Below, piece after piece: positions 24,940 through 50,463 of a stretch of 64,000 bases of DNA. This stretch comes from Methanosarcina horonobensis HB-1 = JCM 15518 (GTDB lineage: Archaea > Halobacteriota > Methanosarcinia > Methanosarcinales > Methanosarcinaceae). Position numbers and translations under genes: made by a program. The stretch covers positions 1,591,036 to 1,655,035 of the forward strand of contig NZ_CP009516.1 in assembly GCF_000970285.1 (NCBI RefSeq), read 5' to 3'. Each line of letters opens with the position of its first letter. Position 1 is the stretch's first letter. The notes under the pieces were generated by a model. That model ran no database searches, was not told the origin of the DNA, and saw nothing but the letters and a program-made list of their open reading frames with translations.

Positions 24940-24947
24940 AAGTCATA

Positions 24948-31575: not shown

Positions 31576-31626
31576 TGCGAGAGGTGCGATTTGAACGCAC
31601 GAATTCCTACGAAACTGGACTCTGAA
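31576..31626 (-). repeat. tRNA-Leu 3' fragment (att-like), copy 3
   Basis: Same orientation and extent as the fragment at 24888: acceptor end, T-arm (one loop change), variable arm, and the end of similarity in the anticodon loop (TTCAGAG). It separates the SRPBCC segment from the histidine kinase segment. Confidence 0.72.
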
Positions 31627-31988
31627 AAACTTATAGATCGATTAGGCTCATCTAGACCTTTTGCTTAAAATTGAAAATCTGCAAAAATTGTTATACATTA
31701 TTATAAAAACAGAAAATAGTATATTTTACCTTTTGCAGATTAGCTATCCAAAAGTGATTTTTGTTTCATTTTCGAAATTTCTTTGAAGAAAGTTATTAGA
31801 TATACAAAATATAATATGCATTTTTTCCGATAAATCAAATAGACAAAATATTTATTATATTGTTTATATTAATAACTCTTTATATAAATATCAAATTGTA
31901 ATATTTACTTCTGTAAATAAATTAAAACTGGTAAAGTTTGAAAGCTTAGACAAAGTAGAAATATTGTGACATATTTTGACTCTTCATC

Positions 31989-32285: not shown

Positions 32286-35078
32286 ATGAGTTTAAAAGGG
32301 GCAAAAGACCAAGAGCCCATACCATATCAGGTACTATTAGATGAAAACCGTGCTTTAAAAGATGAGATACAGAACCTTAGAGTGTGCCTGGAAGAAGCTG
32401 ATGAACTCCGGCGAGCCATAAGTGAAAGGGAGCTTGAGAGTAAGAGGGCTGAGGAGACATTGGCTTTCGAAAGATCGCAGCTCCTGTCAATTTTCGATGG
32501 AATGGACGATGTGGTGTACGTGACCGATCCGTACACCTACGAGGTGCTGTATGCGAATAGAGCGATGAAGGAGAAGTTCGGCGGTGAACTCATGGAAGGG
32601 ATTTGCTACCGGGAGTTCCAGCGGAGGGTTTCTCCCTGCGATTTCTGCACCAATCCGATTATTTTAAAGGAGAGGGATAAGCCCTACCACTGGGAGTATT
32701 ACAACCCAACTGTGGACCGATATTTCATGATTATGGACCGGATCATCAAGTGGCCGGATGGTAGAGATGTGCGGTTAGAGATTGCGAAGGACATTACTGA
32801 ACGCAAAAGAGCTGAAGAAGCCTTGCGGATTTCTGAAGAGAGATATCGTTCGCTGTTCAATTCAATCGACGAAGGCTTCAATATTATCGAGATGATCTTC
32901 GACGACAATGGAAAAGCAGTGGACCATCGGATCCTTGAGGCCAATCCGTCGCAAGAGAAGATGACAGGACTTAAGGATGTCGTAGGCAAGCGAGCTCGTG
33001 AGCTTCTCCCTAATTTCGAAGATTATTGGATCGAGAGCTTCGGCCAGGTAGCAATAACTGGCGAGCCAGTCCGGTTAGAAAACCGGATTGAAGAACTTGA
33101 TCGCTGGTTTGACGTCTACGCTTCGCGTTTCGGGGGTGAAGGCAGCAGAAAAGTAGCTGTTGTTTTCAATGACATTACCCAGCGAAAATTGGCTGAAGAG
33201 GCACTGCACCAGAGTGAAAAGCGGTTGAACTTCGCACTCGAAACCATACACACCGGCGCGTGGGATCTCGACCTAGTGAATTATGATTTTTCCCATCGAT
33301 CACTCGAGCACGACCGCATCTTCGGCTACGAGCAACTTCTCCCGAAGTGGACCTACGAAATGTTCCTCAACCACGTGTTGCCTGAGGACCGAGCGATGGT
33401 GGACAAAGAATTCCAGAAGGCTATAACCTCGGGTGGCGATTGGAGTTTCGAGTGTCGTATCAGGCGCGTGGATGGTGTAATCCGGTGGATCTGGGCAGCA
33501 GGACGGCACCAAGTAGATTATACCGGAAATGTTCGTTGGATGGCGGGGATAGTCCAAGACATTACAGAGCGCAAGCGGGCGGAGGAGACGCTGCGCGAGA
33601 CTGAATTGAGTTGTAAGGTTGCCGAAGCTGTCGAGTCTGAACGGCAGCGGCTCTTTGATGTGCTGGAGACATTGCCGGTAATGATAGCTCTGCTAACACC
33701 TGACCATCGAATTGCCTTTGCCAACCGCAGTTTCCGTGAAAAGTTCGGTGAGTCAGAAGGTCTGCACTGTTATGAGTGTTGCTTTGGGAGCACCCAGCCC
33801 TGTGAGTTCTGTGAATCATATAAAGTGCTTGAAACCGGTCAACCTCACCATTGGGAAGTTACTACCCCAGAAGGAAGTGTGATTGATGTCTACAATTTCC
33901 CCTTTACTGATGTAGACGACTCTCCCATGATCCTCAAGATGGACATTGACATTACCGAGCGCAGGAAAGCAGAAGAAAAACTTCGGGATAGTGAGGAAAA
34001 GTACCGAAACATTGTAGAGACAGCAAATGAAGGCATACTCATAACCGACGATAAAGCCACAATCACGTATGTTAACCAGAAGCTAGTAGACATGCTAGGA
34101 TATACCCTGGAAAATTTTATTGGTAAACCAATATGGGGTTTCATCAGTGAAGAATATAGACCTATTGTCAAACAAAATCTTAAAAAGAGGATGAAGGGTG
34201 CAAGTGGGAGTTATGAATTGAAATTGATACGTAAAGACGGCTCATCCCTCTGGACATTTCTAAATGCCAAACCTCTTCTTTCTAAGGACGGTAATTATTT
34301 GGGCGCTATGAGCATGCTAACTGATATTACTGAGCGCAAAAAAGCTGAAGAATCTCTGGCAAATATTGAGACTGCCCGTAAGAAGGAAATTCACCACAGA
34401 ATAAAGAATAACCTTCAGGTAATTTCCTCCCTGCTGGACCTTCAGGCTGAGCAGTTCAAAAATCGGGTGAATATTAAGGATTCGGAGGTTCTTGAAGCCT
34501 TTAGGGAAAGCCAGGATAGAGTGATATCTATGGCTCTTATTCATGAAGAGCTTTACAAAGGTGGAGGGTTCGAAACACTAAACTTTTCTTCTTATATTCA
34601 GGAACTCGCAGAGAATCTTTTCGAGACATATAGCCTTGGAAGCTCCAATATTAGCTTAAAGCTGGATCTTAAAGAGAATATTTTATTTGACATGGATACT
34701 GCAGTCCCATTAGGAATAATTGTCAATGAACTTGTTTCCAACTCCCTCAAACATGCATTTATAGGCAGAGATAAAGGAGAGATTCTGATCAAACTCAGTC
34801 GAGAAGAAAATGAAGGATGTATAAAAAGTGTAACCGAAGATTGTAAGAGTACCAGCTTCATTCTCACTGTTTCAGATGATGGTGCAGGTATTCCAGAAAA
34901 TCTTGATATTGAAGAGCTTGATAGTCTTGGGTTTCAACTTATAACTTCCCTTGTAGACCAATTAGGTGGGAAGTTTGAATTGAAAGGGAACACTGGCACA
35001 GAGTTCACTATGAGATTCACAGTGATAGAGAAAGATGATCTTACTCAAGTTGACTTAAAACCACAGGAAAATGAGTAA
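32286..35078 (+). CDS. Multi-PAS sensor histidine kinase
   Basis: A 930-residue cytoplasmic kinase without membrane segments. After a short N-terminal coiled coil (about 15-65) come about five PAS units (roughly 65-180, 182-300, 300-425, 445-560, 565-690), each ending in a DITERKxAEE linker. Next are a HisKA_2-type dimer domain with the phosphoacceptor region EIHHRIKNNLQ (His703/His704) and an HATPase domain (N-box NELVSNSLKHA, G-box SDDGAGIP). PAS 1 and PAS 4 both contain a Cys cluster (CDFC and CEFC with an upstream Cys), which could bind metal or sense redox state. No receiver domain or partner regulator is adjacent. The gene is bracketed by tRNA-Leu fragments, the second only 9 bases after its stop. 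Confidence 0.9.
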   Translation: MSLKGAKDQEPIPYQVLLDENRALKDEIQNLRVCLEEADELRRAISERELESKRAEETLAFERSQLLSIFDGMDDVVYVTDPYTYEVLYANRAMKEKFGGELMEGICYREFQRRVSPCDFCTNPIILKERDKPYHWEYYNPTVDRYFMIMDRIIKWPDGRDVRLEIAKDITERKRAEEALRISEERYRSLFNSIDEGFNIIEMIFDDNGKAVDHRILEANPSQEKMTGLKDVVGKRARELLPNFEDYWIESFGQVAITGEPVRLENRIEELDRWFDVYASRFGGEGSRKVAVVFNDITQRKLAEEALHQSEKRLNFALETIHTGAWDLDLVNYDFSHRSLEHDRIFGYEQLLPKWTYEMFLNHVLPEDRAMVDKEFQKAITSGGDWSFECRIRRVDGVIRWIWAAGRHQVDYTGNVRWMAGIVQDITERKRAEETLRETELSCKVAEAVESERQRLFDVLETLPVMIALLTPDHRIAFANRSFREKFGESEGLHCYECCFGSTQPCEFCESYKVLETGQPHHWEVTTPEGSVIDVYNFPFTDVDDSPMILKMDIDITERRKAEEKLRDSEEKYRNIVETANEGILITDDKATITYVNQKLVDMLGYTLENFIGKPIWGFISEEYRPIVKQNLKKRMKGASGSYELKLIRKDGSSLWTFLNAKPLLSKDGNYLGAMSMLTDITERKKAEESLANIETARKKEIHHRIKNNLQVISSLLDLQAEQFKNRVNIKDSEVLEAFRESQDRVISMALIHEELYKGGGFETLNFSSYIQELAENLFETYSLGSSNISLKLDLKENILFDMDTAVPLGIIVNELVSNSLKHAFIGRDKGEILIKLSREENEGCIKSVTEDCKSTSFILTVSDDGAGIPENLDIEELDSLGFQLITSLVDQLGGKFELKGNTGTEFTMRFTVIEKDDLTQVDLKPQENE

Positions 35079-35087
35079 AAAGTTTAG

Positions 35088-35138
35088 TGCGAGAGATGCG
35101 ATTCGAACATACGAACTCCTGCGAGACCAGGCTCTAAT
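35088..35138 (-). repeat. tRNA-Leu 3' fragment (att-like), copy 4
   Basis: Same orientation as the other copies but the most diverged (T-arm GTATG TTCGAAT CGCAT, anticodon-loop end ATTAGAG). It begins 9 bases downstream of the histidine kinase stop codon. Confidence 0.65.
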
Positions 35139-35205
35139 TCCATTAACATCTCCATAATACAAGTATAAAAAATGGATATAAGTATAAAAGATGGTATTTA
35201 TAGTT

Positions 35206-36366: not shown

Positions 36367-36524
36367 TTGATGTTAAATTTGTATTTATACATTTTGGAAA
36401 AGAATTCGTTTAGCTCACAGTAAGAAATCAAAATAAACTTGAGCAAAAAGTCAAAACACGGTTATGCAATAAAAACTACACAAGCTCGTACCTTTTCCGG
36501 CTTCGTATATGCCAGTAGATCAGT

Positions 36525-36606
36525 TCGAGGGGTGGGACTCGAGCTCACGGGATCCTTCGATACCAGATCTTAATTCTACCGCCTTAGAAAAGCATCTTGC
36601 CACAAC
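36525..36606 (-). pseudogene. Relic of a tRNA-Leu (UAA)
   Basis: On the minus strand the segment contains TAAGGCGGTAGA, an anticodon arm with TAA, a leucine-type long variable arm (TATCGAAGGATC) and a T-arm of the form CGAGTCCCACCCCTCGA. The 5' acceptor and D-arm do not pair properly, so it is a decayed copy. It lies 55 bases from another tRNA-Leu fragment. Confidence 0.5.
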
Positions 36607-36661
36607 TTAAAAGAAACGTAAAAAACCAAAATAGTTATAGGATTAATTAAAAAAAGTTAAA

Positions 36662-36713
36662 TGCAAGAGGTGCGATTCGAACGCACGAACTCCTACAAGA
36701 CTGGACTCTGAAT
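36662..36713 (-). repeat. tRNA-Leu 3' fragment (att-like), copy 5, next to the integrase
   Basis: An intact T-arm (GTGCG TTCGAAT CGCAC) and variable arm, ending in the anticodon loop (ATTCAGAG). It lies 62 bases before the integrase gene, as expected for the left attachment site of an element that targets the 3' half of a tRNA-Leu gene. Confidence 0.8.
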
Positions 36714-36747
36714 CCTATATGAAATACGATACTGGATTTAGACATAT

Positions 36748-36757
36748 TTTTATATAA
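36748..36757 (+). promoter_or_regulatory. TATA box for a leaderless integrase transcript
   Basis: TTTTATATAA lies about 23 bases before the integrase ATG at 36776. At the normal archaeal distance, transcription would start at the ATG itself. No ribosome site is present, which agrees with leaderless translation. Confidence 0.5.
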
Positions 36758-36775
36758 TGCCGTTATATTACTTTT

Positions 36776-37891
36776 ATGAAAAACCCTCCCGAGTTTACGG
36801 AAAAGAATAGAGAAATTATTGACGATTATATACGTTATGCTGTCTTAGCTGGGAAGAAAGAAAAGTCGATTCTTGGGGAACAGTGGAGATTAAAAGCATT
36901 TGTCGAGTTCATGAAAAATGAACCTCTTAATACAGTTGAAAAGAAAGATTTAGAGAATTTCATAATTCACCGCAAAAAGACATGCAGTAAGACAACTGTG
37001 CACAATAACTTTTTGACCCTAAGAACTTTCTTTCAATGGCTAAAGCCTGGCAATGATTTTTTTACGGGAATCAAAAGCAAGCAACCCAAAAATAACTTAC
37101 CTGTAGATGAAGTCCTTTTATCTAGAGATGTCCTTACTCTACGGGATGCTGCAAACAATCAGAGGGATAGGGCTTTAGTTATGGTACTCTGGGACTCCGC
37201 AACAAGAAAAGGTGAACTATTGAACATAAATATAGGACATATCCAGCCTGATAAATACGGAGCTACAGTTATTGTTGACGGAAAGACGGGGAAAAGAAGA
37301 ATAAGGCTTATCGATAGCGTCCCAGACCTGCAGCTTTATCTAAATATTCATCCCCTCAGGGACGATCCTAGCGCGCCTCTGTTCATTACAGATAGGAAAT
37401 ATAATGGAAATTACAGAAGGCTCAATGAACAAACAGTAAACAATATGCTAAATAGCCTCGCAGATAAGGCTGGAATAAAAAAGAATGTTTATCCTCATGC
37501 ATTTCGACATGGTCGGTTAACAGATCTTGCTAAAAGAGGATTTAATGAGATGGAATTAAGAATATTTGCAGGTTGGACTAAGGAGAGCAACATGCCTGCA
37601 ACATATTTACATCTTTCAGGTGCAGATATTGAAAAGAAATTGCTTGCTAAGAATGGAATTATTGAAGACGATAGTAAGGAAAGAGAGGAAGAACTTAAAC
37701 CTGCAGAATGCCCTCGATGCAAAACCAAGAACCCTGTAGGTGCAAAGTATTGTTATATATGTTCAATGATCCTAGATCACAAACTTGCTGTAGATGTCCA
37801 AGACATAAAGACCGTAACTGTTGGACAGGCAGACAATACTATGATGTTAGAACTTTTAAACCTCGTGAAGAAATTCAACGAAACACAATAA
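36776..37891 (+). CDS. Tyrosine recombinase (integrase) with C-terminal zinc ribbon
   Basis: A 371-residue site-specific recombinase. An N-terminal SAM-like core-binding domain (about 12-95) is followed by the catalytic domain with Arg144 (SATRKGELL), Lys173 in the beta-hairpin, His241-x-x-Arg244 (HAFRHGRL), Trp267 and the nucleophile Tyr277 (PATYLHLSG). After the catalytic domain come two CxxC pairs (Cys312/315, Cys326/329) forming a zinc ribbon, an extension seen in some archaeal integrases. The gene is intact and adjacent to a tRNA-Leu 3' fragment, so it probably inserted the element that starts here. It appears leaderless. Confidence 0.9.
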   Translation: MKNPPEFTEKNREIIDDYIRYAVLAGKKEKSILGEQWRLKAFVEFMKNEPLNTVEKKDLENFIIHRKKTCSKTTVHNNFLTLRTFFQWLKPGNDFFTGIKSKQPKNNLPVDEVLLSRDVLTLRDAANNQRDRALVMVLWDSATRKGELLNINIGHIQPDKYGATVIVDGKTGKRRIRLIDSVPDLQLYLNIHPLRDDPSAPLFITDRKYNGNYRRLNEQTVNNMLNSLADKAGIKKNVYPHAFRHGRLTDLAKRGFNEMELRIFAGWTKESNMPATYLHLSGADIEKKLLAKNGIIEDDSKEREEELKPAECPRCKTKNPVGAKYCYICSMILDHKLAVDVQDIKTVTVGQADNTMMLELLNLVKKFNETQ

Positions 37892-38000
37892 ATGCGTTCA
37901 ATCTAGTGAGGATGTAAATTTGTTAATTTAAACATTTATAAAATAACAGTTCAAAAGGGTTTTCAAGCTGAGTGAGACGTTTAATGCATTCCAATGGCAC

Positions 38001-39251
38001 TCAGCTAAGCGATTTTTCAATTTTTTCGATAATATGCTGATAACCATAGAAATTCAATAAATCATATAATACAACTTTAGAGTCATCAGAAATGTTCTCT
38101 AAAACCGAGGGTATTTTAATTTTATCCTTAGCCATTACCTCGCTTATGTTTCTTAGCTCGCTTAAAATTAATTCATCTATTATGTCTACGTCGTCTTCTG
38201 ATTTCTTCTTAGAATATTCTTCAATAATCTTTTTTGAGTTTTGTGCAAATGTTATTTCTGTGGTGGAAGCAGTGCCATCAAATATGTCTTGATAATAAAA
38301 ATGCTCGAATAGTAAATCTAGATATAATCTATTAAATGTCTTATTTTGATCTCTCATCAAAGAAAGTATTTCTTCCATTTCCAGACACATATTTTGATAC
38401 TCATCGGGCGTTTTCAAGATTGCTTCTATTTCTATTTTTGATAATTCCGGAATATTTTCTCTGAACTTCATATAAAAACTCTTTATCCAAGGTATTGGTT
38501 CGAGAGGGAATAAGCTCGGGTTTTGAGATCTATTTCTTTTTATTGCTTGGATAGCGTTGTCTCCAGTGGGTTTACTTCTCTTTCTTTCTCTCGCCTCTTC
38601 GCTGTAGCAACCACATACTCGCCAAGCATATTCTTCAAGGATTTCGTCATTTTTCTGAGCTAACTCTTCCATTATTTCCCGGAACCTCTTTTTAGGCAGT
38701 TCAACATTAAGCTTGCCCTTAATATGTTTAGCATTACACTCATTTAGAAGTTCTTCGATGCGTTGTTCTTTTTTAAAACCCTTATCGTGGTTGAAGATTT
38801 CTCGAGCACGGGAATGTAACGTTTTAATATCAGTATTCATGCATGCATTAAAAAACGAGGTTGATAACCTCAATAGAACAAAGAAGTAAACATAACGCAA
38901 AGACTTTTTATCAATACCAAATTTGCGGAGGAGAATAGCTAAGGATTTTTCATATTCATTTAATTGTATATCATGGAGCTGAGAGCGAATACTTTCCAAA
39001 TTTAGGACGCTTGTTATATCCCATAAGTTATACTTACGCCGACCTTTTTTAGTTTTCGTCGGTACGATACACTCATGGTCTTCTAACTCGTGTAAGTGTC
39101 GATTAATGTTTCCCTGATTTGCTTTTTCATCTTTTTTGTTTAATTTCTCTCTAATTTTTGACTCTTCAAGTGGTCCATTATTTTCAAGAATATATATTAT
39201 GATTTTTTGTTTTACGCCGCTTTGCGATATTTCTCCTTTTTTTCTTGCCAT
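38001..39251 (-). CDS. Winged-helix protein of unknown function (416 aa)
   Basis: The first 75 residues form a winged helix-turn-helix (KIIIYILENNGPLEESKIRE then HLHELEDHECIVPTKTKKGR with a basic wing). The remaining 340 residues are helical and charged, without a recognised domain. A regulatory or replication-control role in the integrated element is likely but inferred. The ATG at 39251 has a TATA-like ATATATTTTAAATA about 25-40 bases upstream, so the transcript may have almost no leader. It is divergent from the AbrB-like gene and converges on the integrase gene. Confidence 0.75.
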   Translation of the reverse strand: MARKKGEISQSGVKQKIIIYILENNGPLEESKIREKLNKKDEKANQGNINRHLHELEDHECIVPTKTKKGRRKYNLWDITSVLNLESIRSQLHDIQLNEYEKSLAILLRKFGIDKKSLRYVYFFVLLRLSTSFFNACMNTDIKTLHSRAREIFNHDKGFKKEQRIEELLNECNAKHIKGKLNVELPKKRFREIMEELAQKNDEILEEYAWRVCGCYSEEARERKRSKPTGDNAIQAIKRNRSQNPSLFPLEPIPWIKSFYMKFRENIPELSKIEIEAILKTPDEYQNMCLEMEEILSLMRDQNKTFNRLYLDLLFEHFYYQDIFDGTASTTEITFAQNSKKIIEEYSKKKSEDDVDIIDELILSELRNISEVMAKDKIKIPSVLENISDDSKVVLYDLLNFYGYQHIIEKIEKSLS

Positions 39252-39416
39252 ATTGTATGATATGTATTGAGGGTATTTAAAATATATGTTATCACAATGG
39301 TCTTTGATTAGCAGAGATATTTTGTATGTAGCTATTGAATATTTAGTACATATATGTAATTTATTTCTAAAAAATCCTAGAAATAGCTTTTATAGAAAAT
39401 CCGCGTACAATTAGAC

Positions 39417-39638
39417 GTGATTAAAATGAATATATCACTTGGACAACGGAAAATTCAAAAAACGGGTTACAGTTTTCTTTGCCCTTTGCCCACAATATGG
39501 ATAAGAAATGTCAATCTCAACCAGAGTAGCTCAGTGAACATTGAACTAATGGATGACAATTCGTTAAGAATTACACCCAGCTCGACAGGCCCTGCAAGAT
39601 CTGAGAGAGCCGAGTGTACTACACCCAACAAAAAGTAA
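39417..39638 (+). CDS. AbrB/SpoVT-like DNA-binding protein (73 aa)
   Basis: Residues 9-55 follow the swapped-hairpin AbrB pattern: RKIQKTGYSFLCPLPTIWIR, then a hydrophobic strand and LMDDNSLRITP. Such proteins bind DNA as dimers and often act as antitoxins or regulators in archaeal plasmids. The start is uncertain: GTG at 39417 lies 26 bases after a TTTATA element, so it could be leaderless, and the next ATG is at 39426. It heads the plus-strand gene run leading to the replication protein. Confidence 0.68.
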   Translation: MIKMNISLGQRKIQKTGYSFLCPLPTIWIRNVNLNQSSSVNIELMDDNSLRITPSSTGPARSERAECTTPNKK

Positions 39639-39649
39639 AGGTGCAGATA

Positions 39650-39814
39650 ATGAATTCAATTACTACAAATTATTTATCATTTTCCTCTTATGCGAAACAA
39701 ATCTATACAACAAAAAAGGAAGCCGTAGACTTTCTGGAAAACTCTTTAGACCCCTATGAACATGCTATAGGAGTTCTGATTAAAAAGTATGCGGGGGTGT
39801 CAAACTCTGAGTAA
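39650..39814 (+). CDS. Small hypothetical protein (54 aa)
   Basis: AAAGGTG at 39637-39643 places the start at the ATG at 39650 rather than at the upstream ATG of the same frame. The peptide (MNSITTNYLSFSSYAKQIYT and on) has a mixed helical composition and no recognised family. It belongs to the short plus-strand run before the PrimPol gene. A further 36-codon frame (39789-39896) overlaps both neighbours and ends in an ATGA overlap with the next gene, but it lacks a ribosome site. Confidence 0.5.
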   Translation: MNSITTNYLSFSSYAKQIYTTKKEAVDFLENSLDPYEHAIGVLIKKYAGVSNSE

Positions 39815-39892
39815 AACAACAACTTTTGATTTCAATACTATACGAAATTATGAGTTTTCCTTTGCTTTAATTTTAGAGGGAGGAGAAAGTTT

Positions 39893-40063
39893 ATGAACTC
39901 TTTCTTTGAGGAAGATGATGATATACTTCCTCCAGAGCCTGACCTTTCTCAGTACATCGATGCTAGCATTTTTGAACAGCATTGTAAAGCCTGCAGACAT
40001 AGAATAATAGAAAGACAACAGGCAAGAAAACACAAACCTCAGACATTCAAGAGGGGAAAATAA
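39893..40063 (+). CDS. Small CxxC protein upstream of the primase (56 aa)
   Basis: A very strong ribosome site (GAGGGAGGAG) precedes the ATG at 39893, and the stop directly abuts the primase ATG (TAAATG), so the two are translationally coupled. The N-terminus is acidic (EEDDD), the middle has CKAC followed by His (CKACRHR), and the tail is basic. It may be a small zinc-binding accessory of the replication protein. No family recognised. Confidence 0.65.
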   Translation: MNSFFEEDDDILPPEPDLSQYIDASIFEQHCKACRHRIIERQQARKHKPQTFKRGK

Positions 40064-43000
40064 ATGTCCCTTTCTTCAGGAAATACTGATCCAGAGGAGT
40101 TTAAAAAGTTCCATCAGTTATTAACAAAAGGCAAACATGATTATCAGCCTTTTTATTTTCCTTTGGTCAAAAAAGGAAAAGACCCATTACCTGGAATAAG
40201 CTGGAAGAATAACAGAAAAACGTTTTCTGAAGCTTACAGCCTAATGGAAAAGGGATTTAATATCGGTATTGCAAGCACGGATAAAGATAACCTCTGCATA
40301 GTTGATATAGACAATCTGGAGGCAGTAGGAGAAGCTAAAACAACCTTAACAGTAAAATCCAGAAAACAAATTGGAAGGCACTGTTTTTATTTTACTGATG
40401 ACGAACCAGCACAGGGGGAAGGTGCAATATTTAAAAACAGTGCTAAACAGAACATAGCAACAGAGAAAGCAGGAGAAGTTCGTGCAAACTGGCAGTATGT
40501 TGTATGTTCGGGGTCATTCGTTCCTTGTTCAGAAGAGGAAATTAACAGGATTCCAGAGGAAGACCGCATACATGCTGGAAAGTACAGGCTCTGTTTAAAG
40601 TCTGATGTCTCGAATATAACTTATGAAGAGTTACCGGAAATATACAAGGCAACGCTAGAAGAAAGAAGAGCAACTGAAGTAGTTGCTAATATAAGGAAAA
40701 TAGAACAAAGGCAGTCTAAAAGCTGGGAGCAGGGGCAAAAAAATAAAAGTGCTCTGTTTGGTCTGGATATACATGATGTTACCGGAAGGAGCAACCAACC
40801 TGGGAAACGTTTTGAAATGTTTGCTGAGTTGCATGGTTCTGAAACGGGTAAAAATGCCAGCATTTCCGGGGATGTTTTGCACTGTTGGCGGCATAATGTC
40901 AGCCATAATGCTATAACTTATCTGGCGGTAGCCTCTGGGGTTTCTACATGTTCTAGGGCTGGCTTTCCACATGGTGGGGGAAGTTCAGGAGTAGACATAG
41001 AAGACCCATATACTCAGTTTACTATCTGGAAATATGCTAAAGATCATGGATATATTCCAAAAAGCGATCCTATACCCTCTAAAGCATTAATTTACTGCGC
41101 ACTGAATCAGAAGCTATGTACAAAGGAAGAAATAACCGATGGCTGGAAGCTCCCGGTATCTATCTATAACAAGGTTCTGGAAGACTGCAAGAAGGAGGGA
41201 ATAGAGACTGGAAGACAGCCAACAAAAGAAAAGAAAGGAAAACAGAAAATCAGTGAAGTTAGACCCGAAAAAATAAGCGTTCCTTTTGACGTAGTTGCAG
41301 AGCATATATTGAAGAATAATCATATTTTTTCAATGAGGGACAATAGGCAAATATACCTTTACAAAGACGGAGTTTACAAAAGCGAAGGCACTGAAGCAGT
41401 TTTAGATACTAAAATCAGGAACGTACACAATGAATATTATGTAAAATATTGGAATGAAGCTAACCCTGGATTTCCTTTAACTCATGTTTCAAAAGCTACG
41501 GCAAAATATGTAAGTGAGGTGCTGGCCTATATAAGATCTTATACTCACATTACACGTGACAGTATCGAAGAAAACCAGGACAAATATATTAACCTGAAAA
41601 ACGGGCTTTTCAATCTTGAAACGTGGGAACTTAAACCCCACACACCGGATATAAAATTGATTAGACAAATTCCGGTTTTCTATGACAAAGATGCAGAATG
41701 TCCTCAAATAAGCAAGTTTTTACATGATATAGTTTCAGAGCCGGATATAGATTTGTTGTGTGAGATTGCAGGCTATTGTTTAACTACGGATTGCTCTCAT
41801 CAAAAGGCGTTCATGCTCTATGGTGTCGGCTCAAACGGTAAAAGCGTGTTTCTTGCACTGTTAGAGGCGCTTGTTGGCGGAGAAAATACCTCCGCGGAGA
41901 GTCTGCAAAAACTTGAGTTCGATAAGTACAGGACCGCAAAACTATATGGAAAGCTGGTTAATATTTGTGGAGATATTCCTGACAGCAAAATGCATAAATC
42001 GGAAGTCTTCAAGAAGTTGACCAGCGGACTAGATCTGATAGACGGAGAGAATAAATATCAGGACTCTTTTCAGTTTCGCAATACAGCTAAGCTCGTTTTC
42101 TCAGCAAATGTGCTGCCAGAAGGGAAGAAAGATAAGGCATATTACCGCAGATGGGTTTTAGTTCGGTTCCCTAATAATTTTGAAGGTGGGAAGGAGGATA
42201 AAACGCTAATTACGAGGCTAAAAGATCCTGAAGAACTTTCGGGTTTTCTTAATCTTGCCCTTCAAGGACTTAAAAGACTTAAAGAAAATGGGAAATTCTC
42301 AAACGATAAATCTGTAGAAGATACTCAAAGGGAATATGAGTTTAATAGTAATCCAATAGCTGCTTTTATGGACGAGTGTACGAAAGGTAGCCAAGAAGAT
42401 ATAGATGCTATAATCCTTTACAGCACTTACGTGCTATGGGCTGAAGTCAACGATAAAAGGGTAACGCCTTTTAATCAATTTGGGAAAGAACTTAAAAAGT
42501 TAGGTTATGAAAATTACAGAGACAACGAGCCGGGGAAAAACTGTAGGAAAAAAATTACCCATTGGTGCAATATAGAAATCATTAAAGAGGCACAGGACAG
42601 GCTTAATTGGAAAAAAGACATAGAAGCCTGTCCTAAATATTTATTGGCGACTGATGCTGAAAAAATGCAATTAGGACAGGATGGACAGGCTTTACCCCTT
42701 CCTCAAACTTGTCTGGTAAATAAACCCTACTGTCATTCTTGTGTTTATTACACTGAAGATGCGAACATAAAAGGTAAAAATGAGAAAAAAATAGAAAACT
42801 CACTAACAAATAACCTTTATGCTTGTCCTAAAATGCATTTTTTCGATAACAAGAGAGTTAGGACAGGCTCACAGGATATACACATAGACGAGCCTGTCCT
42901 GACGCAAAAAAAGCTAATTTCTGAGCAACAAAATGAAGAATACAGTATGAAAAACCTAGAATATATCACGTCTTTCAGAGCTGATTTAAAAAAATTGGTG

Positions 43001-43144
43001 AGTAGTAGTCATAATCATTCAGTTGATAATATACCGAGTTTATTGGATGAGTTCAATAGAAGATATCCGGGATATAAACAGGTGTTAGGAAATCAGACTT
43101 TACTAGATGAAGCCGAAAGGCTCAGTAAATGGGGGTGGGAGTAA
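40064..43144 (+). CDS. PrimPol-D5 helicase replication protein
   Basis: A 1026-residue plasmid/virus replication protein. The N-terminus is a bifunctional primase-polymerase domain (about 10-200) with the metal-binding DID at 81-83. Next is a linker, then a D5_N-type region and a superfamily-3 helicase from about 540, with Walker A GVGSNGKS at 587-594, a B-like LVNICGDIP and motif C with the sensor Asn in LVFSANVLP. The C-terminal 250 residues contain Cys pairs (CHSC, CPKM) and are less conserved. Such proteins start and unwind replication of archaeal integrative plasmids and head-tail viruses, so the element could once replicate on its own. The intact frame suggests recent acquisition. Confidence 0.9.
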   Translation: MSLSSGNTDPEEFKKFHQLLTKGKHDYQPFYFPLVKKGKDPLPGISWKNNRKTFSEAYSLMEKGFNIGIASTDKDNLCIVDIDNLEAVGEAKTTLTVKSRKQIGRHCFYFTDDEPAQGEGAIFKNSAKQNIATEKAGEVRANWQYVVCSGSFVPCSEEEINRIPEEDRIHAGKYRLCLKSDVSNITYEELPEIYKATLEERRATEVVANIRKIEQRQSKSWEQGQKNKSALFGLDIHDVTGRSNQPGKRFEMFAELHGSETGKNASISGDVLHCWRHNVSHNAITYLAVASGVSTCSRAGFPHGGGSSGVDIEDPYTQFTIWKYAKDHGYIPKSDPIPSKALIYCALNQKLCTKEEITDGWKLPVSIYNKVLEDCKKEGIETGRQPTKEKKGKQKISEVRPEKISVPFDVVAEHILKNNHIFSMRDNRQIYLYKDGVYKSEGTEAVLDTKIRNVHNEYYVKYWNEANPGFPLTHVSKATAKYVSEVLAYIRSYTHITRDSIEENQDKYINLKNGLFNLETWELKPHTPDIKLIRQIPVFYDKDAECPQISKFLHDIVSEPDIDLLCEIAGYCLTTDCSHQKAFMLYGVGSNGKSVFLALLEALVGGENTSAESLQKLEFDKYRTAKLYGKLVNICGDIPDSKMHKSEVFKKLTSGLDLIDGENKYQDSFQFRNTAKLVFSANVLPEGKKDKAYYRRWVLVRFPNNFEGGKEDKTLITRLKDPEELSGFLNLALQGLKRLKENGKFSNDKSVEDTQREYEFNSNPIAAFMDECTKGSQEDIDAIILYSTYVLWAEVNDKRVTPFNQFGKELKKLGYENYRDNEPGKNCRKKITHWCNIEIIKEAQDRLNWKKDIEACPKYLLATDAEKMQLGQDGQALPLPQTCLVNKPYCHSCVYYTEDANIKGKNEKKIENSLTNNLYACPKMHFFDNKRVRTGSQDIHIDEPVLTQKKLISEQQNEEYSMKNLEYITSFRADLKKLVSSSHNHSVDNIPSLLDEFNRRYPGYKQVLGNQTLLDEAERLSKWGWE

Positions 43145-43262
43145 TTACTTTCCTCTTCCTTTATAGTACAATTTCTTCTCTATGTGTTAACGCCGTGAAC
43201 CTTATCAACTTATAAATAAAATGTTATGTCATATAAGAACCACTTGTATATAAAGAGAAAAT

Positions 43263-43547
43263 ATGAAAACCGATAACAATAGCCCACTAGTTCCTCTAAA
43301 TTTCTCCTCTAGGGATTCACTGTTAAATGCTAATTCTGAATTAATCGGACAGCTGCAGGATAGACTAAAAGCTAAACGTTTCAGGCCTCAGGAAGGAGAT
43401 GGTACAAAACTTGCGTATATTAGGGTATACCTCCAAGCTCTTCAGGTCCAAAATACAATTCTAAAGGATACTGAACTAGACGAAATCAAAAACGAAATCG
43501 AAGAGCTCAAAGAAGCTTTGAAATGTCAATCTAAAAGTAAAGCATGA
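43263..43547 (+). CDS. Small coiled-coil protein (94 aa)
   Basis: Residues 20-40 and 60-88 are heptad-like and charged (TELDEIKNEIEELKEALKCQ). No family recognised. It follows the PrimPol gene by 118 bases and precedes another helical protein by 31 bases, so it is probably part of the element's accessory operon. Confidence 0.6.
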   Translation: MKTDNNSPLVPLNFSSRDSLLNANSELIGQLQDRLKAKRFRPQEGDGTKLAYIRVYLQALQVQNTILKDTELDEIKNEIEELKEALKCQSKSKA

Positions 43548-43578
43548 ATTAAAAGAGCTCGCTTTAGGGGCTTAAAAT

Positions 43579-44022
43579 ATGAGATTGCAACAGATGAGAA
43601 GGGAAGTACAAGAGCTCAGGAAAGCCATAATACCACCAAATAGATCAAGCGAAAATTTATTGCCCACTCCTGAGTTCTTGCGATGCTCTAAAGAGCTTGA
43701 GATGGCACAGGCAAGATCTAGGCAGCGGTTAATAGATAATGGAATATCTGAATCCGAACTACTTGAACGCGAACGCAGGGGCTTAATCTGTGATGCTGAA
43801 GTCATGAAAGTACGTCATAATTTGTTAAGGGCTGCATGGAACGCAAAAAATTTGGATGATCCACAAATAAAAATTAATTATCTTTTCGATTGCCCGGTAG
43901 AGGTTGAGAATTACAAAAAAGCATTTGATAAAATGAATGCGTTATTAAACAAAGATAGAACTCCTGAAGTTGTTAACGCAGAGAAAGAATTATTTCAAAT
44001 AATGCAAGACGCAGGTAGATGA
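43579..44022 (+). CDS. Hypothetical helical protein (147 aa)
   Basis: Charged and largely helical (LQQMRREVQELRKAI at the start, then SRQRLIDNGISESELLERER), without membrane segments or recognised motifs. It is the last gene in the run PrimPol, coiled-coil protein, this gene. The gap after it (44023-44258) has no gene and may contain the border of the integrated element. Confidence 0.6.
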   Translation: MRLQQMRREVQELRKAIIPPNRSSENLLPTPEFLRCSKELEMAQARSRQRLIDNGISESELLERERRGLICDAEVMKVRHNLLRAAWNAKNLDDPQIKINYLFDCPVEVENYKKAFDKMNALLNKDRTPEVVNAEKELFQIMQDAGR

Positions 44023-44258: not shown

Positions 44259-44468
44259 ATGACCCCTGAACTTGTTAAATGTCCTCGCTGCGGGTACAAG
44301 TACCGCACAGATGTAAAAAAAGTTATTGAAGACGGGGAAACTGTTGCAGTACGCCTCGGATTTTCTGATATTAAAAAGCTATTAAGCCGAAAAACTACCA
44401 AAAGCCTGAATTTAGACCTTATCTGCCCCAATTGTAAGAAAGAATTTGAATGGAAAGTGAAAACGTGA
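44259..44468 (+). CDS. Zinc-ribbon protein, first gene of the ribbon/membrane/CHAT module
   Basis: 69 residues with two CxxC knuckles (CPRCGY at 8-13 and CPNCKK near 56-61), the plan of a zinc ribbon. The middle is a helix-rich linker (VIEDGETVAVRLGFSDIKKL). GGTGA before the ATG supports the start. Its last 19 bases overlap the next gene, a membrane protein, so the two are coupled. A broken homologue sits at 50654-50445 in the same relation to another membrane-protein remnant and a CHAT gene, so this is a conserved partner, not a chance neighbour. The ribbon may bind nucleic acid or act as an adaptor. Confidence 0.75.
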   Translation: MTPELVKCPRCGYKYRTDVKKVIEDGETVAVRLGFSDIKKLLSRKTTKSLNLDLICPNCKKEFEWKVKT

Positions 44469-44938
44469 CTGAGGAAGAGGTTGAGAGCACAGGTGATGAG
44501 GAAGATATTCCTTTTATTCCTACCGAGCCCAATTCTTTCTGGAAGAAGAATGCTGAAAAGATAGTAGGGGAATCTATTTCGGTTGTGGAAGATACGGCAA
44601 AACAGTTTGTTGTCGTCACAGGGCTACTTCAGGGGATCTATTTTCACGCAATCACATTTTCTGATATCAAAGGTACAGGGGGATACTCGACCTTAATATA
44701 CATGGCTCCTCTTATTCTATGGTTTTTGAGCCTTATTTTTGCAGTGATGGTTCTTCTCAGGAATAGATACATGATTAACATAAATTCTACCAGTGACTCA
44801 AAGGAAAAATTCGAGGAAATGGTAAACACTAAGTACACGTATATCCAGATTTCAGGTGGGTTCTTGGTTCTCAGTTTTTTGGCACTAGCTATTGCTGTTT
44901 TGCATTACTTGGATATTGTCCCTATTGGGACATCGTGA
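44450..44938 (+). CDS. Two-TM membrane protein of the ribbon/membrane/CHAT module
   Basis: 162 residues. An acidic N-terminus (EEEVESTGDEEDIPFIPTEP) leads to an amphipathic segment, then two strong hydrophobic helices at about 82-106 and 130-152. The conserved core FWKKNAEKIVGESISVVEDT is nearly identical in the truncated homologue at 50463-50194. It overlaps the zinc-ribbon gene. A membrane partner for a CHAT protease/STAND protein could be the cleavage target or a membrane-damaging effector, by analogy with other caspase-like defence systems. That role is inferred. Confidence 0.72.
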   Translation: MESENVTEEEVESTGDEEDIPFIPTEPNSFWKKNAEKIVGESISVVEDTAKQFVVVTGLLQGIYFHAITFSDIKGTGGYSTLIYMAPLILWFLSLIFAVMVLLRNRYMININSTSDSKEKFEEMVNTKYTYIQISGGFLVLSFLALAIAVLHYLDIVPIGTS

Positions 44939-45123
44939 GTTGATATCCTTTAATTTTGTATTTTAAGTTCCAAGCTTTATCTTTATTAAACAAACTTAGC
45001 CTTTTATAGATATTATCGGATTTATAGCAGCCTCTATTAATTTTTCAGATATGTTTTATTATACTTAATTTATAATATCTGCTTTAAATTTATTATGTTC
45101 AAATAGTGGTTGGTGGTTTTTTG

Positions 45124-45455
45124 GAGTATTCTCCTCTCTATTTTCAGATTACCCGATCCCTGAATTTCCTTCTTATCCTATCATGCCTCAATTCTGGAGG
45201 ATGGGGATGTTGTAGCAAGCAGTGATTTCGAACTCAGACAAGATTTGAGACTTCATCAGGTGCTTAAAAGTATAGAAAGGGCAGTTACTGAAAGTCCAGA
45301 GGAATCAAAGAGACAGAACGAGAAAATATAATCATGGGAAGTAAGGGAGAGAAGAGCCAAACATTGAATTTGAGAAAATGTTCTACAACAGAGTGCTTTC
45401 TAAAGGACTCAGCGATTATTTCAACAAATCAATAAGGAAGTTCAAGGTAAAGCAT
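45124..45455 (+). pseudogene. 5' stub of a third CHAT-STAND-TPR gene
   Basis: On the plus strand the sequence can be aligned with the first 90 codons of the two intact minus-strand CHAT genes, for example HASILEDGDVVASSDFELRQ against RASILENGDTKVTQSFELRH, and NIEFEKMFYNRVLSKGLSDY against HIEFGKMLYNTVFSGELGDY. Stops and frame changes interrupt it, and it ends 17 bases before the 3' end of the convergent CHAT gene. It follows the intact ribbon and membrane genes, so this copy of the module has lost its protease. Confidence 0.7.
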
Positions 45456-45471
45456 ATTGAGGAGTCGTCTT

Positions 45472-48400
45472 TTACCCTTGATTTAAAAAATTTCTAAATA
45501 TTTTCCACCATTTTCTATTTTTCTCCTCCCTCATTTCCGCTGTTTTCCTCTCAGCCCTCAGCCCAATTTTTTCTTCCCTTTTTTCCTCCATTTTTCCTTC
45601 TAATCTTTCAATATCTTTTCTTGCCATCTCTATATATGGAGATCCTAACTTCTCAAATATTTCAAACGCAGTGGAAGAAGCTTGAATGGCAAGTTTATAT
45701 TCTTCTCTCTTTTCGTATATTCTCCCTATCTGCCCTAATGTTGATGCAATTCCGCTTTTGTTCCCCAATTCTTCAAACATTACCAGTGCTTGGTTAAACT
45801 TTTTCATCGCTTCTTCATAGTTGCTCTGATTCTGATGAATCATTCCAATCGCGTGCAGAATTGCTGCAATTTCCCCTTTATCTCCCAACTCCTCTTGAAT
45901 TTTCAGTGCTTGGTTAAACTTTTTCACTGCTTCTTCATAGTTGCGTTGATCCTGATCAATCATTCCAAGCACGTGTAATGTTTTCGCAGCTCCATTTTTA
46001 TCCCCAAGATCTTCAAAATATTTCAGGGCTTCATTTAAATTTTTCGCTGCTTCTCCATAGTTTTCCTTCTCTTCATGAATAATTCCAAGTATGAAAAATA
46101 TCTGTTCGATTTCACTTTTGTCTCCTAGTTCTTCTTTAATTTCCAGAGATTGGTTACATAATTTCACTGCATATTCATAGTTTCCCTGGAGATAATGAAT
46201 TTTTCCAAGCGCGTACAGTATTTGTGAAATCTTACTTTTGTCCCCTAATTCTTTAAATATTTGTAGAGAATGTTTTAACTTTTCAAATGCTTCTTTATAG
46301 TTTCCACAATGCTGATCAATCAATCCAAGCTGGCACATTGCTACTGCAATTCCGTGTCTGTTCCCCACTTCTTCTGCAATTTCCAGAGACTCGTTATACT
46401 TTTTGATTGCTTTTGCATATTCATTCTGAAGATAGTAGATATTCGCAAGCTTGTAAAATGCTGACCCAATTAAGTATTTATTCCCCAGTTCCTCTGCACT
46501 TTTTAGAAATTGGCTATAGTTTTTAATCGCTCCTTCATAATCTCCCTGGTCCTGATGAATAGATCCAAGCTGGTCTGATGTTACTGCAATTCCACTTTTG
46601 TCCTCTAGTTCTTCAAACATTTTTAGGGCTTGGTTATAATTTTTTACTGATTCCTGCAAATCACCTAGAATGTAGTGAATATTTCCAAGTTGGTGTAATG
46701 TATCAGCGATTTCTTTTTTGTTTCCCAGCTCTTCAAATTTATCCAGACACTGGATATAAATTCTCCCTGCTTCTTCATAATTTCCATGTAGAAAATGAAT
46801 ATTTCCAAGCCTATCAAGCGTCGTTGCAATATCACTTATGTTTTTTAGTTCCTTTTTAATTTCTAAGGATTTACTATAACTGTCTATAGCCCCTTCATAG
46901 TTATTTTGTTTAAAATTCGCTTCACCGAGACGATCTAATAATTCCATGATTTCTATTTTGTTTTCAACTTCCGGATATATTTTTAGAGAATCTTCATACA
47001 TACTTACTGCTTCTCTGTAGTTACCTTCTTTGTAGTGGATCCTTCCAAGCTGGTATAATATTTTTGAAATTCCTCTTCTGTCTCCTATTTCTTTTTTTAA
47101 TTTCAGGGATTGTTTATACATTTTTGCTGCTTCTTCATATTTCCCCTGTGAATAATTTAAATTTCCAATTTGGAGCATTGTTATTGAAATTCCGTATTTA
47201 TTTCTCATCATTTCTGAAATTTCGAGAGATTGGTAATAGTACTTTTCTGCTTCTTCATAATTTCCTTGATCCTGATAAATCATCCCAAATGAATGAAATA
47301 CTTCTGAAATTCCACCCTTATCTCCAAGTTCCTCAAATATTTCCAGAGCTTGGTTATACTTTTTCATGGCTTCTTCGTAATTTCCCTGATGATAATGAAC
47401 GCTTCCAAGCTGGTAAAGTGCTCCTACAATTATATCCTTGCTTCCTATATCTTTTTGAATTTCAAGAACTTGGTTATATATATTCATCGCTTCTTCATAT
47501 TCTCCTCTATGCTCATGGACTATTCCGATATGATTCAATAATAGCGAAACTCCTCCTTTGTTTCCTGACTCTTCACATGTATTTTTTGCTTGGTTATATA
47601 TTTTATATGCTGTTTTCACATCTCCGAGACGATCAAAAATCATAGCAAGGGAAACTTCAGCGACCATTTTTTCTTCATCAGAAACTGTTTTAATGGATTC
47701 ATTCAAGAGACTCATTGATAGTTCAATGTAACCCCAACGGATTAGAGCATCTACAATTGTTAATACAATATGAGAGGCACATTCCCATTCCTCTGCTTGA
47801 AAATAGTAATCTCGCGCTCTCAGAATATCCCATATGTTTTTATTTTGATCTGCAAGATTTTCGTAATATTTGGCGGCTCTAAGAAGTAACTTCTTTTTAT
47901 CCAATGTTTCTTCTTTCAGCTTATTCTGAGCGAAATCTCTAACAATTGTATGTTCAGTATAAACTTTTCGATTATACACTTCTTCCTTTGAAAATAAACC
48001 CCGTTGGATTAGTTTCTGCAGTAGTTCTCCAACAAAAGGACTTTCATCAATTTCATCTCCTATAATCCACGATAAAGCTTCAACAGTGACTGCTTCTTCA
48101 TAAACTGAAGCGTAAAGAAAAAGTTTTTTAGTATCTGAATCCAGTTTCGAAAAAGATTTCTCCAGTAGAGTAAACTCAATTAATTCCTTTTTCAGAGATT
48201 GTAGGTCCAGTAGTAAGTCATCTACACCTTGAACAGAAGCAAGCCTTGCAAACTGTCCAACTGCCCAGGGGTTTCCACCTATTACATCATAGAGCTGCTT
48301 CTTTTTCTGGAGATCAAGAGTTGCAAGTTCATTATAATTATTCATCAGCCAGTTAGTCTGAGGGAAATGGAGTTCGGAAAGAGAAATATGTTCAATGCTT

Positions 48401-50064
48401 TCAGACAGCTTGCTTTCCATAGGATCGAAATCATAACGAGATGTTATGATGACTTTTGTATTGCTGATGGTGTTGTTCAGGAGGTACAGAATGAATGCTT
48501 TAAGTTCAGGGTTTTGAATTTCATTCCTGTCCTCGCTCAAGCAGTCTTCAAAACTGTCGAATATTATTAAGAAACGAAAATGGTTAAGTATACCTACTAG
48601 TACAGAGCTTTTAACCTCAAAAGATACCTGCTGATTGATAATCTGGCTAAGCTCATACCTTCCGTTCATTATAAGAAAGTCGTTTACCTTAGTAAGAATA
48701 TCTTCGGGTCTGGTACTCGAAGTACATTTCATTCCAAAAGTTCCGTCAAAGTACTCACCCATCTTTTGCTCAAATCTGGTTGCAAAAGCAGTTTTCCCTA
48801 TACCGCCAAAGCCATGAATAATTGCAGCTCTTTTTAAATCGGACTTAAAACATTTTTCAAGAATATGAAGCTCTTTTCTTCTGGCAACAAAACCCTTGTT
48901 CATCCTAGGTATATCTAACAATAACTTAGGTTTTATTGCAAATTCTGTGGGCTCTGGTTTAGAGTCTTTCACTTGTATACAATTATAATCTGATAGGTAC
49001 AGCACCGGCGTTCCAAAATCAAAGCCATTACTCTTTTCCGAGATATTTATTTCAATCCGGGCTTCTTTTAAAGCAAGGTCTACAGTTTTTCCGCTTGCAA
49101 TTGTCTTATAAAAAACAGATGCAAATTTTATTGCTATATCATCAAGTACTGAATATTGCATTGCCACGACAGCAGGAATTCCCTTTTTGGAAAGCATACT
49201 GGCTACATCATCAAAAGCTTCTTTATTTGAGCCTTTGGCCGATTCACAAGAACTAAGAACTACAAGCCTTATACCCATGTCTGAAAAGAGCTCAGCAAGA
49301 GTAATATTGTCTTCAAGCTTTGCTTTCCTGTCTTCGGTCTCGAGTATAAGATATCCTTTTCCATCAATGTTAGTCCCGTGTCCAGTGAAATGCACTATGT
49401 GATAGTTTCGCTCATTCAAGTAATTCTGGATGGTTTCAACAGTCGCGTCTTCTGTAAAATCCACTCTTATCTTATGGTCTCTTTGGAGCTTGTCCACAGC
49501 TTCTAGAATGATTTTCTGTTCTTTTTCAATGTTCAGGGGAGTAATCTTGGTATCATCTGGACTTGAGATTACTACAAGCATTCGGAGAATGGAATCCAGA
49601 GGCTTAGATTCTGTCTTCTTTATCCCAACCGGAAGCCTTGAGAGCAAAAACCTTCTCTTTGTGATTAAAAAGTCATCTTCGTCGTGGAGATATTCCCATG
49701 GTAATGCTGCAATATCAGGAACATCTTCACCGAATCTCATGGAAATCCTGAGCCCACAATTTTCATCCTGTGATTCTCTGGAACGTTTGTCGAAATAATC
49801 TCCCAGTTCTCCCGAAAATACAGTATTGTACAACATTTTTCCAAATTCTATATGAGTTATCTCCTCAGGCTGAGGTCTTGGAACTATAGCTTTCTTCTCA
49901 AGTTGATCCAGCATTTGAATAAGTTTAAGATCATGTCTGAGTTCAAAACTCTGAGTAACTTTAGTATCTCCGTTTTCCAAAATTGAAGCCCTATATAGAT
50001 TATGTGAACCTTCAGGTTCTTTTGTAATCTGCAGATCAAGAGAATAATAGTCCAGAATAATCAC
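45472..50064 (-). CDS. CHAT protease / STAND NTPase / TPR protein (1530 aa)
   Basis: Three parts. A caspase-like CHAT domain (about 70-365) has the His-Cys dyad His229 (HFTGHG) and Cys273 (LSSCES). A STAND/NB-ARC-type NTPase (about 390-700) has Walker A GFGGIGKT at 418-425 and Walker B FLIIFDSFED. A long array of about 17 TPRs of 40 residues (about 800-1480) is followed by a charged, coiled C-terminus. Such proteins are expected to sense a trigger through the TPRs, oligomerise and activate the protease. The start is GTG at 50064, embedded in AAAAGGTGATTATT, so the ribosome site and start codon overlap. It is last in the order CHAT paralogue, broken ribbon, broken membrane gene, this gene. The TPR region repeats with a 120-base period. 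Confidence 0.88.
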   Translation of the reverse strand: MIILDYYSLDLQITKEPEGSHNLYRASILENGDTKVTQSFELRHDLKLIQMLDQLEKKAIVPRPQPEEITHIEFGKMLYNTVFSGELGDYFDKRSRESQDENCGLRISMRFGEDVPDIAALPWEYLHDEDDFLITKRRFLLSRLPVGIKKTESKPLDSILRMLVVISSPDDTKITPLNIEKEQKIILEAVDKLQRDHKIRVDFTEDATVETIQNYLNERNYHIVHFTGHGTNIDGKGYLILETEDRKAKLEDNITLAELFSDMGIRLVVLSSCESAKGSNKEAFDDVASMLSKKGIPAVVAMQYSVLDDIAIKFASVFYKTIASGKTVDLALKEARIEINISEKSNGFDFGTPVLYLSDYNCIQVKDSKPEPTEFAIKPKLLLDIPRMNKGFVARRKELHILEKCFKSDLKRAAIIHGFGGIGKTAFATRFEQKMGEYFDGTFGMKCTSSTRPEDILTKVNDFLIMNGRYELSQIINQQVSFEVKSSVLVGILNHFRFLIIFDSFEDCLSEDRNEIQNPELKAFILYLLNNTISNTKVIITSRYDFDPMESKLSESIEHISLSELHFPQTNWLMNNYNELATLDLQKKKQLYDVIGGNPWAVGQFARLASVQGVDDLLLDLQSLKKELIEFTLLEKSFSKLDSDTKKLFLYASVYEEAVTVEALSWIIGDEIDESPFVGELLQKLIQRGLFSKEEVYNRKVYTEHTIVRDFAQNKLKEETLDKKKLLLRAAKYYENLADQNKNIWDILRARDYYFQAEEWECASHIVLTIVDALIRWGYIELSMSLLNESIKTVSDEEKMVAEVSLAMIFDRLGDVKTAYKIYNQAKNTCEESGNKGGVSLLLNHIGIVHEHRGEYEEAMNIYNQVLEIQKDIGSKDIIVGALYQLGSVHYHQGNYEEAMKKYNQALEIFEELGDKGGISEVFHSFGMIYQDQGNYEEAEKYYYQSLEISEMMRNKYGISITMLQIGNLNYSQGKYEEAAKMYKQSLKLKKEIGDRRGISKILYQLGRIHYKEGNYREAVSMYEDSLKIYPEVENKIEIMELLDRLGEANFKQNNYEGAIDSYSKSLEIKKELKNISDIATTLDRLGNIHFLHGNYEEAGRIYIQCLDKFEELGNKKEIADTLHQLGNIHYILGDLQESVKNYNQALKMFEELEDKSGIAVTSDQLGSIHQDQGDYEGAIKNYSQFLKSAEELGNKYLIGSAFYKLANIYYLQNEYAKAIKKYNESLEIAEEVGNRHGIAVAMCQLGLIDQHCGNYKEAFEKLKHSLQIFKELGDKSKISQILYALGKIHYLQGNYEYAVKLCNQSLEIKEELGDKSEIEQIFFILGIIHEEKENYGEAAKNLNEALKYFEDLGDKNGAAKTLHVLGMIDQDQRNYEEAVKKFNQALKIQEELGDKGEIAAILHAIGMIHQNQSNYEEAMKKFNQALVMFEELGNKSGIASTLGQIGRIYEKREEYKLAIQASSTAFEIFEKLGSPYIEMARKDIERLEGKMEEKREEKIGLRAERKTAEMREEKNRKWWKIFRNFLNQG

Positions 50065-50142
50065 CTTTTCAGAAAAAAACGTCTGAAATTATCAAATTTA
50101 TAGTTATTGTTTCTTGCCCGAATTAAAATATAAAAGGAAATT
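49805..50142 (-). repeat. 338-bp segment nearly identical to 53951-54287
   Basis: The promoter and first 86 codons of the two CHAT genes differ at only about ten positions by eye. Beyond this segment the genes diverge strongly. Both copies share the TATA element (minus strand, about 50136-50127 and 54282-54271). The sharp edges suggest recent gene conversion or a partial duplication. Confidence 0.75.
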
Positions 50143-50193
50143 GTTTTCTATGAAAAACAAGGTATAGATAAAAATTTTAAGCTGACAATCTGG

Positions 50194-50463
50194 TCACAGG
50201 GGAAAGAAGAAAAAAATGAAAACTGAATAACCCTCTGCCCTTCTTATCTCGGAAAATGCAATAGAGTGAAAATAAATCTCTTGAAGCAGCCCCGTAGCAA
50301 CAACAAATTGTTTTGCCGTATCCTTTACAGCCGAAATAGATTCTCCAACAAGCTTTTCAGCGTTCCTCTCCCAGAAAGGATCGGGTTCGGCGGGAACAAA
50401 AGGAATTTCTTCCTCACCACCCTCGCCTTCAATTTTCCTTTCAGTCACACCTTTACTTCCCAC
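50194..50463 (-). pseudogene. Truncated membrane-protein gene of the second module copy
   Basis: The first 75 residues match the intact 162-residue membrane protein at 44450 (FWERNAEKLVGESISAVKDT against FWKKNAEKIVGESISVVEDT), starting from a GTG. The frame ends in an unrelated FIFFFFPL tail, so both transmembrane helices are lost. It sits between the broken zinc ribbon and the CHAT gene at 50064. Confidence 0.8.

Follow-up and report, generated by a model that had tools for sequence, protein, structure and literature searches.

A probable tRNA-Leu-targeted integrative replicon of Methanosarcinales with exchangeable, often defence-related cargo

The stretch of DNA analysed here, referred to as the window, covers 64,000 nt (bases 1591036-1655035) of the complete 5.02 Mb chromosome of Methanosarcina horonobensis HB-1 (genome G000). 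Within it begins what is very probably a modular, tRNA-Leu-targeted integrative replicon of Methanosarcinales, ~30.4 kb long, that ferries exchangeable cargo, often defence genes. This reading rests on att sites that flank a CHAT island, on a relative in which the site is empty, and on a sister element that carries other cargo at the same tRNA. Cargo and regulator differ between related elements, and the architecture recurs in other genomes. A first-pass annotation had placed the unit at 36662-44022; that interval holds the replicon-like backbone, the first 7.4 kb of the ~30.4 kb whole.

The two ends of the element are marked by copies of one tRNA gene:

36663-36714, minus strand: left att scar, a tRNA-Leu(CAG) 3' half that starts at the anticodon loop and runs to the 3' end
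67060-67146 in extended coordinates (genome 1658095-1658181), minus strand: right att, an intact tRNA-Leu(CAG) found by ARAGORN

The left fragment had been recognised at first pass, and its tRNA part is real. No second att had been seen up to 64 kb, which is correct, and the search beyond that point recommended at the time led to the intact tRNA, 3.1 kb past the window end and adjoining argF. When the 140-bp stretch at the left end is compared with its own genome, the next best match is at 1658074-1658148 (92% over 74 nt), and the att homology extends ~70 nt beyond the tRNA end (84% over 121 nt including flank). An intact integrase gene thus sits between two att copies, one of which restores the tRNA, as in classical Type II tRNA-targeted elements. 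A sequence search of the genome found the interval from 36.7 to 67.0 kb free of tRNA-Leu copies, and the CHAT/TPR genes at 44-66 kb therefore lie inside the ~30.4 kb element, in keeping with the earlier suggestion that genes after 44 kb could be its cargo. An element end near 44 kb, which would have separated the CHAT island from the backbone, is ruled out by the same result. The tRNA-Leu at 22304 was also considered as a partner and was rejected on orientation, as its 3' end points left, away from the element.

The uninterrupted site can be seen in G025, a complete genome that is colinear with the left flank of the window through the rRNA operon: a histidine kinase gene is followed after 8 nt by tRNA-Leu(CAG) and then by argF, with no insertion. 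The kinase adjoins the tRNA directly in G020 too, and tRNA-Leu adjoins argF in 28 of the 29 same-genus genomes for which the argF locus was recovered. In the window, the kinase (32286-35078) terminates on a tRNA-Leu 3' scar with the same junction as at the G025 empty site, and likewise in G002, a genome of another species:

35078-35135 (to 35147 in the array below), minus strand: older tRNA-Leu scar that directly adjoins the stop codon of the histidine kinase

Because the kinase ends on this scar as it does at the empty site, the DNA from 35.1 to 67.1 kb is inserted and is composed of a 1.5 kb remnant followed by the 30.4 kb element. The right-terminal ~65 nt of the element recur in diverged form (77%) at 36594-36656, immediately before the left scar, which is what a related element that once occupied the site would have left behind.

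An array of tRNA-Leu sequences lies to the left of the element (22304-22389, 24878-24947, 31566-31635, 35078-35147, and 36520-36577). Three of its members are further 3' halves of the CAG type, one is a degenerate 3' half resembling TAA, and the tRNA-Leu(CAG) at 22304 is complete although weakly paired. The scars at 24.9 and 31.6 kb are on the far side of the kinase, to its left, and are not accounted for by simple stacking at the argF tRNA.

The backbone consists of the following genes, for which identities refer to a sister element in G002 and, where given, to an element in G022:

36776-37891, plus strand: 371-aa tyrosine integrase carrying a zinc ribbon at its C-terminus (PF00589, 2e-17; 91% in G002)
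38001-39251, minus strand: winged-helix regulator, 416 aa, convergent with the integrase gene (weak HTH matches)
39417-39638, plus strand: AbrB/MazE-like small regulator (weak, E=1e-3)
39614-39814, plus strand: conserved ORF of up to 66 aa (~66% in G002 and G022)
39893-40063, plus strand: CxxC peptide, 56 aa, abutting the replicase gene (78% in G002)
40064-43144, plus strand: PrimPol-D5 (SF3 helicase) replication protein, 1026 aa (TIGR01613, D5_N, DUF5906; 89% in G002)
43263-43547, plus strand: conserved 94-aa ORF (88% in G002, 58% in G022)
43579-44022, plus strand: conserved 147-aa ORF, the end of the shared backbone (74% in G002)

The integrase gene starts ~60 nt to the right of the tRNA-Leu scar, and a TATA-like box ~20-28 nt upstream of its ATG is compatible with a leaderless gene. 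The protein has the active-site motifs ATRKGEL (from residue 142), HAFRHGRL (241), GWTKES (266), and TYLHLSG (276), and a zinc ribbon, CPRC..CYIC, at residue 312, all of which agree with its initial description as an intact zinc-ribbon tyrosine integrase. Of the two proposed regulators, the winged-helix protein has weak HTH matches only; the AbrB-like protein also has a weak match, but a homologue takes the same position in related elements. A regulator search of plasmid records returned nothing.

The reading frame of the CxxC peptide, initially described as coupled to a PrimPol-D5 gene, directly abuts that gene. The D5 helicase half of the replicase matches TIGR01613 above the cut-off (4e-62); the PrimPol half has no match in Pfam, and is recognised by a family profile that matches the pRN1 ORF904 primase-polymerase (E=0.003). 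Residues D81, D83, and H106 are kept in 7/7 homologues, and the AlphaFold model of this half (pLDDT 50) is uninformative and carries no weight here. The combination of PrimPol and SF3/D5 helicase is that of a plasmid or virus replicon, and integrase and replicase are, as first described, both intact. Searches with the replicase returned only distant primases from plasmid and phage records, a single MAG from genome contigs, and, as the relative in a named record, Methanosarcina. A viral contig, L090 (IMGVR_UViG_3300025725_000003), encodes a PrimPol that shares 54% identity with the N-terminus of the replicase, and it also has a large terminase (PF03237, PF17289).

The G022 element keeps the integrase, AbrB, and the 66-aa and 94-aa ORFs, yet its PrimPol-D5 is replaced by a primase of the DnaG type together with a DNA polymerase of family A, so that the 94-aa ORF adjoins a different replicase. 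PrimPol-D5 was also not seen near the integrase in most other members of the integrase family. By these comparisons the replicase is an exchangeable module.

To the right of the backbone lies the cargo:

44259-44468, plus strand: zinc-ribbon ORF, start of the cargo, absent from the G002 element
44450-44938, plus strand: membrane ORF, absent from the G002 element
45472-50064, minus strand: CHAT-NACHT-TPR protein, 1530 aa (PF12770, 4e-35; NACHT, 1e-8)
50644-54240, minus strand: second CHAT-TPR protein, 1198 aa, a diverged duplicate (PF12770, 3e-35)
54568-59667, plus strand: STAND-like protein, 1699 aa, with N-terminal ATPase, TPR array, and C-terminal SMC/RecF-like ATPase
59680-61515, plus strand: 611-aa protein without a family match
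61516-64000, continuing past the window end to extended coordinate 65889 (L012:2552-6925), plus strand: TPR protein, 1457 aa

The element itself extends beyond the TPR gene to 67.1 kb. The 611-aa protein has no match in Pfam, NCBIfam, or PADLOC and one relative among 60 genomes. Four of the cargo proteins were scanned against described anti-phage systems, and the scan gave no full-length match, only TPR and partial SAVED-CHAT models; an antiviral role for the CHAT/TPR cargo is suggested by its domains only. The region 44450-54310, with its two CHAT genes, resembles a diverged tandem duplication: each gene has a membrane ORF relative (44450-44938 and a truncated one at 50194-50463), both share a 92-nt upstream repeat (90%), and there seems to be a CHAT-like N-terminal remnant near 45.2-45.4 kb.

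The sister element in G002 is 17.8 kb long and occupies the same tRNA-Leu/argF site. DNA similarity between the two elements ends at 44042, and the cargo of the G002 element is a complete Hma system, with HmaA, HmaB, and HmaC lying side by side and each matched over its full length at E=0. The HTH regulators are unrelated (416 aa in G000 vs 265 aa in G002), and the AbrB proteins are only 35% identical. In an argF tree the two hosts belong to different clades, which other lineages separate. The nucleotide identity of the backbones, 84-86%, equals that of argF (85.9%), and vertical descent with local replacement of the cargo could therefore account for the pair, as could independent gain.

Relatives of the integrase (family cut-off E<=1e-85) occupy 34 places in 10 genera, spread over 30 of the order's 186 genomes. 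In nearly all members whose upstream region was read, the exception being G132 C7, the gene adjoins a tRNA-Leu 3' half, be it of the CAG, TAA, TAG, or CAA type. Eleven elements could be closed at both ends, and all have the 3' scar by the integrase and, at the far end, an intact tRNA of the same isoacceptor in matching orientation; their sizes are 30.4 kb (G000), 17.8 kb (G002), 29.4 kb (G168), 17.9 kb (G169), 20.0 kb (G170), 26.5 kb (G129), 34.3 kb (G139), 14.4 kb (G126), 13.7 kb (G082), 45.5 kb (G008), and about 33 kb (G022), where the last two hold further tRNA-Leu copies and may be composite. Cargo was identified by HMM. Among the closed elements, CRISPR-Cas I-B is found within G168 and, by the position of Cas7b, within G169 and G170, CRISPR-Cas I-E within G022, a type I methyltransferase or R-M system within G129 and G139, and a CHAT protein within G008; no clear defence system was found in G126, which carries an MttB methyltransferase, or in G082. 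Alongside members that are not closed there are BREX (G125, G132), Hma (G116), and I-B (G146) genes. At 8 of the 34 places one of the markers PglZ, HmaA, and Cas7b is found no more than 20 kb from the integrase, compared with 1 of ~66 other tyrosine integrases, which come from another genome set that partly overlaps this one (Fisher p about 6e-4, with 33 used in the calculation), a rough test whose true weight is lower because several of the eight positives (G168-G170) are close relatives. At G022:C21 (L095/L096), a CRISPR-like array and type I-E cas genes are interspersed with several tRNA-Leu genes, which represent three isoacceptors, and the locus is a nested hot spot of integration.

A mechanism consistent with these features would have the tyrosine integrase recombine the tRNA-Leu 3' half on the integrase side of the element with the chromosomal tRNA-Leu(CAG), leaving an intact tRNA at the far junction and a 3'-half scar at the integrase-side junction. 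Once excised, the circle would rely on the PrimPol-D5 protein for its replication, the winged-helix and AbrB proteins may control maintenance and immunity, and the two CHAT-TPR proteins together with the STAND/TPR operon may protect both host and element. Successive insertions at one tRNA would produce a tandem array of scars.

A related branch, represented in G013 and G015, keeps the winged-helix, AbrB, and PrimPol genes, has a helicase-like gene of its own after them (DUF927 in G013), and uses a different integrase. Both genomes have a small-terminase-like gene (PHROG 4102, 8e-9 and 8e-5), around which no large terminase was recognised. The G013 element, 31.5 kb from L092:5403 to L143:17972, lies between 25-bp direct repeats, its likely att, carries BrxA, BrxC, PglX, PglZ, and BrxL, and is a candidate archaeal virus satellite.

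P4 and PICI are bacterial satellites that are packaged by a helper virus, and the G000 element might similarly be a satellite of head-tailed archaeal viruses, excised and packaged by a helper, with its cargo directed against competing viruses. What makes this attractive is the P4-like layout (integrase, regulators, primase-helicase, and variable defence cargo), the terminase-like gene of the related G013/G015 elements, and the PrimPol of the large-terminase contig L090. We nevertheless consider it unlikely, as no small-terminase-like gene of the kind expected of a PICI-like satellite was found among the G000 backbone ORFs, the integrase has no relative in IMG/VR, and 30 kb exceeds the size of P4-type satellites (PMC8628076). 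Among the proteins scanned with Pfam, PHROGs, and NCBIfam, none matched the P4-like components psu, delta, sid, epsilon, and alpA, as defined in PMC8628076. Similarly doubtful is the broader proposal of an order-wide mobile family, with exchangeable integrase, immunity, replicase, and defence modules, that would move as satellites of head-tailed methanogen viruses and be a main vehicle for CRISPR-Cas, BREX, and Hma exchange at Methanosarcinales tRNA-Leu loci.

No conjugation or virion genes were found in the element, and this absence of transfer genes would also fit a decayed, immobile island, in which an old plasmid remnant beside the tRNA acquired unrelated defence genes through ordinary recombination. 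The older scars and remnants close by (24.9, 31.6, and 35.1 kb) and the att regions, which are 84-92% alike and not identical, point the same way. Such decay is hard to reconcile with the integrase, PrimPol-D5, and small ORFs, which are intact and 74-91% conserved in G002, with the intact tRNA at the far end, or with the recurrence of the same architecture with other cargo in other genera, and we judge it quite improbable. An integrated provirus stripped of its structural genes is very improbable, since the PrimPol relative in a tailed-virus contig is set against the absence of terminase, portal, capsid, or any other structural or packaging gene from the element's proteins and, by inspection, from the G002 element. 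The original description, an integrated element that resembles a plasmid or virus and encodes its own replicase, is supported, its viral part solely through that shared PrimPol.

Little is known of the spread of defence systems among archaea. The integrative replicon favoured here would provide a concrete vehicle, with both ends mapped and present in many genomes, in which different complete antiviral systems occupy one slot and in which replicase and regulator are themselves exchangeable. It also offers a handle on new archaeal defence genes, which can be sought in the interval from this integrase to its tRNA-Leu partner, and it places the CHAT/STAND genes of the window, as candidates for defence, in a defined context. 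We found no description of this tRNA-Leu integrase family in the open-access literature.

Archaeal classical (Type II, pNOB8-like) tyrosine integrases integrate at tRNA 3' halves (PMC8371274), and the present family resembles these elements in that the integrase gene stays intact, the att comprises the 3' part of the tRNA including the anticodon loop, and the tRNA is restored; it differs in its preference for tRNA-Leu across isoacceptors, its zinc-ribbon integrase, its PrimPol-D5 replicon, and its defence cargo. With the P2/P4 defence hotspots (PMC9122126) and P4-like satellites (PMC8628076) it has in common an integrase, a regulator, and a primase-helicase next to a high-turnover slot holding antiviral systems, although the present element is archaeal, has at least 10 kb of cargo, and has no known helper. 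The archaeal 'dark matter' islands, which combine an AEP primase with an integrase and overlap defence islands (PMC4158269), are similarly integrative but feature a superfamily I helicase fusion (arCOG07809) in place of PrimPol-D5 and a swappable replicase. Finally, a Methanosarcina casposon uses tRNA-Leu-like target sites (PMC10359463), although casposons are Cas1/PolB-based, have terminal inverted repeats, and rely on an unrelated recombinase. In G007, a casposon-like element (L101:5958-13140) lies at the same tRNA-Leu/argF site, with a Cas1 recognised by Pfam, a weak HNH match, and a PolB-like ORF that is apparently interrupted by an insertion.
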